NCBI GenBank assembly: GCA_017415145.1
Contig: JAFQJE010000007.1
Location: forward strand, 1-64,000
Direction: 5' to 3'
Origin: Clostridia bacterium
GTDB lineage: Bacteria > Bacillota > Clostridia > UBA1381 > UBA9506
Length of the DNA stretch: 64,000 nt
This document shows positions 7,773-56,823 of this stretch, piece after piece (position 1 is the stretch's first letter; the number at the start of each line of letters is the position of its first letter). Under the pieces are notes generated by a model. That model saw nothing but the letters and a program-made list of their open reading frames with translations. It had not been told where the DNA came from and did no database searches. Made by a program: the position numbers and the translations under genes.

Positions 7773-7975
7773 AAGCTGGCAAAAATAGTGCATAACCGTT
7801 CAAAACAATATTACAATATTAGTCGTAAACATATGAAGACACTCAGCACTGAGTGTCTTTTTATTTTATGTTTTGAACTTAAACAAACCGTACCACTCGG
7901 CGTACCTATGTACGCCTTCGGGGCACACCCCTACGGGTTAGGTTTGTTTATTCTGCATCTATTTTTTCTCAGCTT
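7773..7975 (+). repeat. Structured dispersed element, copy 1 (after rpoD)
   Basis: This ~203-nt element consists of nested stems. P1 is AAGCTG 7773-7778 / CAGCTT 7970-7975, and P1b is AAAAATAG 7781-7788 / CTATTTTT 7959-7966. P2 is GTTCAAAACA 7798-7807 / TGTTTTGAAC 7869-7878; it encloses a small hairpin near 7807-7820 and a terminator hairpin (7836-7859, then five T). P3 is AAACAAACC 7881-7889 / GGTTTGTTT 7941-7949; it encloses GGCGTAC-ctat-GTACGCC (7899-7916) and ACCC-ctac-GGGT. The layout recurs at 33693, 51704 and 56552. An open frame at 7788-7979 inside it is not a gene. Confidence 0.85.
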
Positions 7976-33262: not shown

Positions 33263-33610
33263 GTGGTTGTAAAAAGAGGAGATATTTTTTACGCTGATTT
33301 AAGTCCTGTAATAGGCTCCGAGCAAGGCGGCACACGACCTGTGTTGGTCGTACAGAATGACGTGGGAAACAAATTCTCCCCCACTGTTATCATTGCCGCC
33401 ATCACCTCGCAGATTAACAAAGCTAAGCTGCCTACTCATATAGAAATAAACGCTCACGAGGTGGGACTCTTAAAGGATTCTGTTATTTTATTAGAGCAGG
33501 TCCGTACCATCGACAAAAAGCGTTTGCGTGAAAAAATAGGCAGACTCGATGACGAGCAGTTGGCTTCCGTTGACGAAGCTTTAGGAATAAGCTTTGGTAT
33601 TACAGAATAA
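33263..33610 (+). CDS. ndoA: mRNA interferase EndoA (MazF family)
   Basis: This 115-residue sequence-specific endoribonuclease cleaves mRNA when the antitoxin is degraded (UACAU in B. subtilis EndoA). The signature [29 protein letters not shown] and [13 protein letters not shown] match EndoA closely. The start is GTG at 33263; an ATG two bases earlier is out of frame. Confidence 0.94.
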
Positions 33611-33654: not shown

Positions 33655-33692
33655 AATTGATACGTCGAATGCTGTATTTCATGTTGCAATAA

Positions 33693-33880
33693 GGCTGAGG
33701 AAAAATTGTTCAGAATGCACGAACGGAACTTAAGGGATACCCGAAGGCGTACATAAGTACGCCGAGCGGCGACGTTCGTGTGTAATCAAAATCATTAATT
33801 CAAAAAGCACACGGCAACGCCGTGTGCTTTCGTTTAATAATATAACTTGATTTTGATGGTCTGGACTATTTTTACCAGCC
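33693..33880 (-). repeat. Structured dispersed element, copy 4 (after lysC)
   Basis: On the minus strand this begins 3 nt after the lysC stop. P1 is GGCTG 33880-33876 / CAGCC 33697-33693. P2 is ATCAAAATCA 33857-33848 / TGATTTTGAT 33794-33785 and encloses a terminator hairpin (GCACACGGC / GCCGTGTGC, 33807-33827, then T5). P3 is CACGAACG 33780-33773 / CGTTCGTG 33725-33718 and encloses the invariant GGCGTAC-ttat-GTACGCC (33763-33746). P2 and P3 differ in sequence from the other copies but still pair. Confidence 0.83.
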
Positions 33881-33883
33881 GAC

Positions 33884-50510: not shown

Positions 50511-51704
50511 ATGAGCAGAATGATTGGTACAGTATCAAGAGGTGTAAGAGCCCCTATTATCAAGGCAGGAGATGACATTGTAGAGATCGTTACTTCCTCT
50601 GTTTTGGAAGCTGCACGCGAGGAAAACATCACATTCAACGACCGTGACATCGTTGCAATGACAGAAGCAATCGTTGGTCGTGCACAGGGCAACTACGCAT
50701 CTGTTGAAAATATAGCTAAAGACGTTAAGACAAAATTCGGGGGAGAGACAGTAGGTGTTATATTCCCTATTCTTTCACGTAACCGTTTTGCTATCTGCTT
50801 ACGCGGTATAGCAAAAGGTGCAAAGAAAATTGTTTTAATGTTATCTTACCCCTCAGACGAGGTTGGTAACCATTTAATCAGCTTAGACGCTATGGACGAA
50901 AAGGGTGTTGACCCCTATACAGATGTTTTATCTTTAGAAAAATATCGTGAACTTTTCGGATATGAAAAGCACAGATTTACAGGCATTGACTATGTAGAAT
51001 ACTACGAAGGACTTATAAAAGAATGCGGTGCTGAGGTTGAAGTGATTTTTGCCAACAATCCCAAGGCAATTTTAAACTATACAAAAAATGTTCTTTGCTG
51101 TGATATTCACACAAGAGCACGCACAAAGAGAATATTAAAGAATAACGGTGCAGAAATCGTTTTAGGACTTGACGAAATTATGAACGCACCTGTAGACGGC
51201 AGCGGTTATAATGAATTTTACGGTCTTTTAGGTTCAAACAAAGCTACCGAAGATACTGTAAAACTCTTCCCCCGCAACTGTCAGCCTATTGTAGATGCTA
51301 TTCAGAAGAAATTGTTTGAAGCAACTGGCAAAAACATTGAGGTTATGGTATACGGCGACGGTGCATTTAAAGACCCCGTAGGAAAGATATGGGAGCTCGC
51401 AGACCCTGTTGTTTCTCCTGCATACACTAAGGGCTTAGAGGGTACACCTAACGAATTAAAATTAAAGTACCTTGCAGATAATGATTTTGCAGACCTTTCA
51501 GGTGATGAATTAAAAGAAGCTATCAAACAAAAAATCGTAGAAAAAGACGATAACTTAGTTGGTAATATGGCATCAGAAGGTACAACACCCAGACAGTTAA
51601 CAGACCTTATCGGTTCACTTTGTGATCTTACATCAGGCTCAGGCGACAAGGGTACACCGATTGTCTTCATTCAGGGTTATTTTGATAACTACACAACCGA
51701 GTAG
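50511..51704 (+). CDS. CofE-like gamma-glutamyl ligase family protein
   Basis: This 397-residue protein is related to coenzyme F420-0:gamma-glutamyl ligase (GTVSRGVRAPIIKAGDDIVEIV, AIVGRAQGNYASVENIAKDVK, VYGDGAFKDPVGKIWELADPVVSPAYTKGLEGTPNE). It is longer than archaeal CofE (~250 residues). No other F420 gene is in the window and F420 is not expected in Clostridia, so the substrate is probably different. AAAGGAG precedes the ATG. A structured element begins at the last base of the stop codon. Confidence 0.82.
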   Translation: MSRMIGTVSRGVRAPIIKAGDDIVEIVTSSVLEAAREENITFNDRDIVAMTEAIVGRAQGNYASVENIAKDVKTKFGGETVGVIFPILSRNRFAICLRGIAKGAKKIVLMLSYPSDEVGNHLISLDAMDEKGVDPYTDVLSLEKYRELFGYEKHRFTGIDYVEYYEGLIKECGAEVEVIFANNPKAILNYTKNVLCCDIHTRARTKRILKNNGAEIVLGLDEIMNAPVDGSGYNEFYGLLGSNKATEDTVKLFPRNCQPIVDAIQKKLFEATGKNIEVMVYGDGAFKDPVGKIWELADPVVSPAYTKGLEGTPNELKLKYLADNDFADLSGDELKEAIKQKIVEKDDNLVGNMASEGTTPRQLTDLIGSLCDLTSGSGDKGTPIVFIQGYFDNYTTE

Positions 51705-51902
51705 GCTGGTAAAAACGACACATAATCGTTCAAAACAAAGAGCAAATTTTTGCTAGAAACAGATGAAGGCACTCCATGTGGAGTGCCTTTTTAATTTATG
51801 TTTTGAACTTAAACGAACCTCACCTCTCGGCGTACACACGTACGCCTTCGGGTAACCCCTGCGGGTTCGGTTCGTTTATTCTGTATCCGTTTTTCCTCAG
51901 CC
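51704..51902 (+). repeat. Structured dispersed element, copy 2 (after the CofE-like gene)
   Basis: P1 is GGCTG 51704-51708 / CAGCC 51898-51902, and P1b is AAAAACG 51711-51717 / CGTTTTT 51888-51894. P2 is GTTCAAAACA 51728-51737 / TGTTTTGAAC 51799-51808 and encloses an AGCAAA/TTTGCT hairpin and a terminator (GGCACTCC / GGAGTGCC, then T5). P3 is AAACGAACC 51811-51819 / GGTTCGTTT 51869-51877 and encloses GGCGTAC-acac-GTACGCC 51829-51846 and an AACCC/GGGTT hairpin. Compared with copy 1, P1b and P3 change on both sides and stay paired. No gene lies in 51705-51918. Confidence 0.87.
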
Positions 51903-51918
51903 ATATTTTAGAGCCGCT

Positions 51919-54671: not shown

Positions 54672-54689
54672 ATTTACAACTTCATCAAA

Positions 54690-54958
54690 AGGCGATGACC
54701 GAAAACAAGTAGGTTTATCCGAGTGCTTCAAGAGAGTTGTCGGGTGGTGCAAGACAATGGCTAAGATAGACTGAATACATTTCGTGAGCTGCGCACCGAA
54801 ATTTTTAGTAGGCTGCGACGGGCGTTCCCGTTACAGAACTAAGGTATGTCAGTACCTGATAAGGCTCTTGCCGTGAGACAGGAGTGAACCGAGGTGGTAC
54901 CACGAGAATGCTCTCGTCCTCTGGAATCTTTTCAGGAGGGCGGGTTTTTTTATTTCCG
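54690..54958 (+). promoter_or_regulatory. T-box riboswitch, probable tyrosine specificity
   Basis: The T-box sequence GAGGTGGTACCACG is at ~54890-54904, followed by a terminator (CCTCTGG... pairing with CAGGAGGGCG, then T7) that ends near 54952. Stem I shows the AGAGAGTTG distal motif and an AAGTA in the 5' specifier-loop strand. CGAAA (54700-54704) pairs with TTTCG (54780-54784). The 3' strand reads GAA-TAC-A, putting the codon TAC (54776-54778, tyrosine) in the specifier position. The codon call depends on this hand fold. Uncharged tRNA-Tyr would turn on the transporter gene. Confidence 0.85.
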
Positions 54959-56549: not shown

Positions 56550-56551
56550 AC

Positions 56552-56772
56552 GGTGATGTGAAAAACGTCCAGACCGCAAAAGGCGACAATTAAATATAAA
56601 CAGAACAAAACAAGAAATTGACATAATTTTATTATGTTGAAAAATCTTATCAGATTTTTCTTTATTATATGCCTTTTGCTACGAACAAACTTCACCTCTC
56701 GGCGTACTTCTGTACGCCTTCGGGTATCCCTTCGGTTCAGTTTGTTCATTCTGAATCGTTTTTCCCTATCCC
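56552..56772 (+). repeat. Structured dispersed element, copy 3 (after the symporter)
   Basis: P1b is GAAAAACG 56560-56567 / CGTTTTTC 56757-56764. P2 is GCAAAAGG 56576-56583 / CCTTTTGC 56672-56679 and encloses ACATAAT/ATTATGT and a terminator (AAAAATCT / AGATTTTT, then CTTT). P3 is GAACAAAC 56683-56690 / GTTTGTTC 56740-56747 and encloses GGCGTAC-ttct-GTACGCC 56701-56718 and a GGTATCCC segment. P2 is unrelated in sequence to copies 1, 2 and 4 but sits in the same place and pairs fully. The interval 56550-56823 has no gene. Confidence 0.83.
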
Positions 56773-56823
56773 CTTACACAATATATCAAAGGCAAATGCT
56801 ACACCTGAAAGGAAAGAAATAAA

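Follow-up and report, generated by a model that had tools for sequence, protein, structure and literature searches.

An uncatalogued family of mobile structured elements at gene ends in Clostridia, with a fold on the antisense strand

Four similar elements in a 64,000-nucleotide stretch of a Clostridia genome (contig JAFQJE010000007.1, positions 1 to 64,000; hereafter, the window) belong to a real, widespread, and uncatalogued family, with a covarying fold under selection on one strand, insertion polymorphism between relatives, and an association with the terminators at which these mobile elements land. The elements are non-coding and about 200 to 250 nt long. Our preferred reading, which we regard as probable, is that of a non-autonomous mobile element of this length that folds on the antisense strand and spreads into intrinsic terminators at gene ends. 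A first-pass annotation of the window had described the four copies; its observations held and proved to concern a larger phenomenon than stated, while its interpretation held in part, the strand assigned to the fold being the part that failed. Mobility went unnoticed there and is shown by empty sites, tandem arrays, bursts of copies, and copies in phages.

The four window copies lie where they had been reported, with boundaries now reset by the pairing of the outer stem. Copy 1 (7773..7975, folding antisense strand minus) follows rpoD, which reads on the plus strand. The arms of its outer stem P1, likewise set by pairing, occupy 7773..7793 (AAGCTGGCAAAAATAGTGCAT) and 7952..7975. The P2 arms, at 7798..7807 (GTTCAAAACA) and 7869..7878 (TGTTTTGAAC), enclose a terminator-like hairpin with a T-rich tail at 7836..7866 (AAGACACTCAGCACTGAGTGTCTT, plus strand), oriented with rpoD transcription, and the P3 arms, at 7880..7889 (TAAACAAACC) and 7941..7950 (GGTTTGTTTA), enclose the P3a hairpin GGCGTAC-CTAT-GTACGCC at 7899..7916. 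Copy 2 (33691..33882, folded strand plus) follows an aspartate-kinase-like gene reading on the minus strand, copy 3 (51702..51904, minus) an F420-0:gamma-glutamyl-ligase-like gene reading on the plus strand, and copy 4 (56550..56775, minus) a sodium:solute symporter gene, also on the plus strand; the hairpin pattern places P3a at 33746..33763, 51829..51846, and 56701..56718, respectively. The layout proposed earlier, with an outer stem, a P2 holding a small hairpin and a terminator-like hairpin, and a P3 holding GGCGTAC-N4-GTACGCC and a second hairpin, is confirmed. Such an arrangement amounts to a three-way junction, in which P1 closes the element, P3 holds an internal-loop hairpin, and P2 holds the variable hairpins.

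The genome contains 11 matches to the GGCGTAC hairpin pattern, all of them copies of the element; a reversed-pattern control gave none. A covariance model of the P3 module (R1, 84 positions), along the lines of the search that had been suggested for the genome and related Clostridia, found 24 copies at E<1e-6 in the 1.12-Mb incomplete genome, the four window copies among them. It also matched 39 of 61 near-relative genomes (own genome included), with up to 34 copies each, and 56 of 391 genomes drawn evenly over the class. No match was obtained in 397 other genomes drawn evenly over the phylum, a set that doubles as a specificity control for the model. The named carriers are metagenome assemblies of ruminant and rabbit gut Clostridia, and dispersed copies number 24 to 36 per genome. 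As the first-pass annotation had supposed, the element fits no known family: Rfam 15 gave no match at gathering or permissive thresholds, and the best sub-threshold matches were not meaningful. No description of the family was found in the literature searched; PMC8040213 reports 3161 palindromic terminator-like candidates from human microbiomes, which may include it. One decayed copy (L116, G000:C3:80222-80295, E 0.05) carries other hairpins in place of the P3 core.

Across 90 distinct copies, pairing is present in 91.3% of cells, and in 18 of the 23 pairs both partners have changed (194 cells). Covariation scores 0.286, versus 0.115 ± 0.005 for shuffled alignments and at most 0.070 for slid registers, and none of 500 shuffles reached the observed values. 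Consequently, the compensatory change noted earlier is borne out, as is selection on the structure as a single-stranded fold (RNA or single-stranded DNA [ssDNA]), since covariation lies far above both controls. The P3a hairpin, which had been called invariant, shows compensated variation in relatives (e.g., CTGTAT/ATACAG). P2, which like P1 was delineated by anchored pairings, has been rewritten across lineages with pairing kept (GTTCAAAAC/GTTTTGAAC, GCAAAAAGGC/GCCTTTTTGC, ACACAAGGCA/TGCCTTGTGT, and GTTTGACGGC/GCCGTCAAAC), and the terminator-like hairpin inside it differs in sequence between most copies. P1 is the most variable stem (GGCTG/CAGCC, GGGGAT/ATCCCC, and GGGTG/CACCC); even within one genome, its outer repeat takes different forms (GGCTG, GGGGATG, GGATG, GGACTG, and GGCG) and remains paired. 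A four-pair helix in the model, P3c (ACCT/GGGT), was rejected, as its central C-G pairs barely vary and its outer ones pair poorly.

Which strand folds can be read from the mismatches. Under strand-symmetric mutation, A-C and G-T mismatches would be equally frequent, and an A-C on one strand corresponds to a G-T, or G-U wobble, on the other. On the gene strand, P3, P3a, and P3b together hold 99 A-C against 15 G-T mismatches, a sum that leaves out helix 2 and whose counts are not independent events because two recurrent columns supply many of the P3 cases; in P1, the figures are 82 against 27. This excess of A-C on the gene strand indicates that the selected fold lies on the strand antisense to the left gene. 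Furthermore, the minimum free energy is lower on the antisense strand in 80 of 82 copies with RNA parameters (by 9.6 kcal/mol on average) and in 82 of 82 with DNA parameters; counted by genome, antisense is favored in 41 of 41; the flank control for folding energy was balanced (45/49). Wobble asymmetry and folding energy thus place the fold on the strand opposite to the one implied by the earlier claim that the element reads in the direction of the gene. The internal hairpin differs in behavior: its stem has no wobble bias (13 versus 12), and a T-run of at least 4 follows it in 42 of 64 distinct copies when read on the gene strand, versus 20 of 64 on the other strand. This pattern fits a predicted terminator for the gene lying within a structure that is important on the opposite strand. 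Selection of a fold on one strand only indicates a single-stranded mobile or functional form, and the frequent wobbles would slightly favor RNA over ssDNA.

The position of the copies relative to genes is equally marked. Simple ORF calling gave both neighbors for 90 copies. Convergent gene ends flank 38 of these; another 29 follow a gene and share its direction, 17 follow a gene in the opposite orientation, and just 6 separate two gene starts. A gene 3' end therefore adjoins 84 of the 90, with the element in either orientation. The start just after a stop codon that had been described (0 to 3 nt) is found in all four window copies (0 to 2 nt) and is not constant across the family, where the rule is proximity to a gene 3' end in either orientation. 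Of 96 copies, 47 have a strong terminator-like hairpin no more than 70 nt from the end that faces away from the left gene; among the controls, such a hairpin was found in 1 of 96 shuffled sequences and in 1 of 94 distant ones. In some genomes, the neighboring hairpin is an ordinary gene-specific terminator (e.g., at L104, L111, and L112). In others, such as G111 and G034, it is nearly identical in most copies and so may be part of what moves instead of a feature of the target site.

Comparison of orthologous gene ends, found by searching with fused C-termini of host proteins, reveals that the element is mobile and not tied to a gene. Orthologous host genes were discarded as a common factor, as the upstream genes are unrelated and only rpoD was found twice with high identity, its end being occupied in G000 (the genome of the window) and also in G051. 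Eight gene ends were compared with the same-genus genome G002, at 80 to 100% identity, and in seven of them the element is missing from G002. At the eighth (L095), G002 holds an inverted element (L343) between the same flanks of a convergent gene pair, at 81% identity; the opposite orientations reflect either independent insertion or inversion in place. Simple hairpins follow the stop codon in G002 at L092, L093, L101, and L102. A locus in a yak metagenome-assembled genome (L012) has the same empty state as G002 at L092, and the two may be closely related or the same species. Within the window, the site of copy 3 has no element in L012 or G002, which carry a simple terminator hairpin after the stop codon instead, and that of copy 4 has none in G002 or G001.

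The direction of change is given by L093, where G002 has an intact terminator hairpin (AACGAGGCTGTAGC-attac-GCTACAGCCTCATTTTTTT plus a T-run) and where, in G000, homology resumes beyond the element at ACAGCCTCATTTTTTT, the right half of the G002 hairpin. A half hairpin is the derived state, which means that the element was gained in G000 at this site. Gain is polarized by a remnant at L093 only, and empty sites elsewhere could stem partly from rapid loss. At L094 and L101, the element replaces a 37- to 50-nt stretch containing a hairpin, and over the four empty/filled sites (L092, L093, L094, and L101) the target replaced spans 27 to 50 nt. No target duplication is visible at these four sites in comparison with G002, a test that the A/T-rich context limits.

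Genomes of one family or order may carry anywhere from 0 to 34 copies, and bursts of near-identical copies occur within genomes. In G111, an example of such a burst, 36 left ends were found; in many of them the first stretch is identical although the adjoining sequence differs, and a large number of contigs end inside them. Tandem arrays of 207- to 242-nt units occur in G018, G021, G017, G250, and G160. Additionally, end fragments of 25 to 35 nt, stopping in P2, are found beside full copies or alone; these could be reverse transcripts stalled at the stem or deletion remnants at A-runs.

Phages also carry the element. Blastn of phage and plasmid record collections gave no element match; strict pattern scans of viral contigs returned 0, 4, and 0 matches, all four of them real copies. 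Three of the four contigs, which come from several metagenomes, carry the same copy (L370 and L372 among the loci). At L372, the element follows the major head protein gene on a contig with terminase, amidase, and holin genes. The viral-contig copy is also present in genome G051 as L155, and it is this sharing that identifies phages as carriers. Phages may spread the element between hosts.

According to the reading we prefer, the element would insert at the intrinsic terminator of a gene end, disrupting or replacing the resident hairpin, and the hairpin and T-run that it brings along, which point in the gene's direction and are predicted to be active, would presumably take over termination. 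Insertion would then cost the host little, as termination can be taken over. The folded strand, whether RNA or ssDNA, is probably recognized by a mobilizing enzyme. Searches of the carriers for Y1 transposase, reverse transcriptase (RT), and IS110 found no such enzyme: Y1_Tnp was not found in 20 of the 39 relatives that carry the element (G000, G001, and G002 included); RVT_1 is present in 5 of 20 carriers versus 3 of 8 element-free genomes, is absent from the burst genome G111, and as a multi-copy gene may be missing from metagenome assemblies; and a full-length IS110 (DEDD) transposase occurs in 3 of 20 carriers, other matches being partial and in frames of about 1400 amino acids. Across the genomes searched, none of the three showed an association with the element that would mark it as the driver. 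These protein-family absences are weak to moderate evidence because the genomes are metagenome assembled and incomplete.

A bolder version of the preferred reading, which we put forward tentatively, makes the element a bacterial counterpart of SINEs: a mobile folded antisense RNA (or ssDNA) that parasitizes an enzyme, uses terminators as safe sites, and is partly spread by phages across Clostridia. Its retroposon form, in which an RT supplied in trans, such as that of a group IIC intron, copies the antisense RNA into T-tracts behind terminator hairpins, is rather improbable. Read on the folded strand, the element is often preceded by a terminator hairpin and T-run, its fold is wobble rich and RNA-like, and the end fragments that stop at P2 resemble 5'-truncated reverse transcripts. 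However, the same fragments are equally explained as deletion remnants, RVT_1 was found in a minority of the carriers searched and not in G111, and inspection by eye showed no obvious promoter for antisense transcription.

A comparably low probability attaches to an ssDNA element moved on its bottom strand by an HUH enzyme (IS200/IS605 or RAYT) or by an integron-type tyrosine recombinase. The strand-specific fold, the tandem arrays, and the unseen target duplication would all follow from this mechanism, but half of the element-bearing relatives searched, among them G000, G001, and G002, have no Y1_Tnp. Tyrosine recombinases are too common to be informative about the integron-type form.

A classical MITE, that is, a remnant of a DDE transposon whose ends are recognized as terminal inverted repeats of double-stranded DNA and moved by cut and paste, is less probable again. 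The element shares with MITEs its dispersal, its size and non-coding nature, ends complementary over about 25 nt, and near-identical copies within a genome. Nevertheless, the sequence of the outer repeat differs among copies of a single genome, though its pairing is kept; 27 to 50 nt of target are replaced with no duplication visible at the four sites; and recognition of double-stranded DNA does not predict a strand-specific fold. Finally, a vertically inherited 3'-UTR regulatory RNA or complex terminator needed by each host gene, for which precise placement after stop codons, the internal terminator, the conserved fold, and the rpoD copies of G000 and G051 could be cited, is very unlikely given otherwise unrelated upstream genes, mostly empty orthologous ends within the genus, copy numbers of 0 to 34 within a family or order, and a fold on the other strand.

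Known bacterial repeats offer partial likenesses. BOX, RUP, and SPRITE of Streptococcus, REP/BIME, ERIC, and bcr1 of Bacillus are non-coding, foldable, intergenic sequences of 100 to 250 nt in tens of copies, presumably moved in trans. The present element is likewise non-coding, intergenic, multi-copy, foldable, and presumably moved in trans, and is set apart by a strand-specific fold that covariation over many bacterial families supports and by the replacement of terminators. Group IIC introns insert at intrinsic terminator hairpins, as does the element, which, in contrast, has no Rfam group II ribozyme match, no RT inside, and no RVT_1 association. With integron attC sites it shares tandem arrays and the importance of one folded bottom strand, but not the attC core motif (judged by eye) or ORF cassettes. 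IS200/IS605-derived PATEs and REP/RAYT systems resemble it in palindromic, ssDNA-like ends and strand asymmetry, whereas Y1 is absent in half of the carriers searched and the element is folded as a whole and not at its ends alone. Compared with intrinsic (Rho-independent) terminators, of which it contains a predicted one in the direction of the gene and whose place it takes, it is about five times longer and has a large conserved fold on the opposite strand. We rate it as a dispersed structured repeat that behaves like a MITE- or SINE-like parasite and in part like a terminator, and that lacks those defining features of the families named above for which it was tested.

These results emphasize that a widespread structured element, with up to 36 recognizable copies per gut-bacterial genome, is missing from Rfam. 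Insertion at terminators by an element with its own predicted terminator would rewire gene ends with no obvious damage to the host. Identifying the enzyme responsible for its movement would give access to a new transposition system and perhaps to a tool for integration at terminators. The element also causes assembly breaks and may mislead terminator and non-coding RNA annotation in carrier genomes.

Several variants and neighbors deserve mention. Long forms in G111 (L281:10468-10990, L302, L305, L316, and L330) have either about 200 nt or more of extra structure at the P3 tip or a different, large P3; none holds a mobilizing ORF or an Rfam match. An ORF-bearing version of the element was not encountered, the larger variants of G111 and G051 with extra structure (at the P3 tip or in P2) having no transposase-like ORF. 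Two G111 copies (L280 and L331) are split inside the internal hairpin beside a similar palindrome, GATATGCACCCCAAAAGT..ACTTTTGGGGTGCATATC, apparently another repeat or the end of an insertion sequence. The internal hairpin of copy 1 (window 7836-7859, ACTCAG..CTGAGT) resembles the simple terminator of G002 at the rpoD end (L355), and a similar likeness to the G002 terminator exists at L102; capture of a host terminator by the element is possible at these two sites, while other sites have no such likeness. In the window itself, a PemK/MazF-like toxin gene (33263-33610) is convergent with the aspartate kinase gene across copy 2, and the SSF symporter gene ending at copy 4 is preceded by a T-box leader (125.8 bits, 54686-54924).
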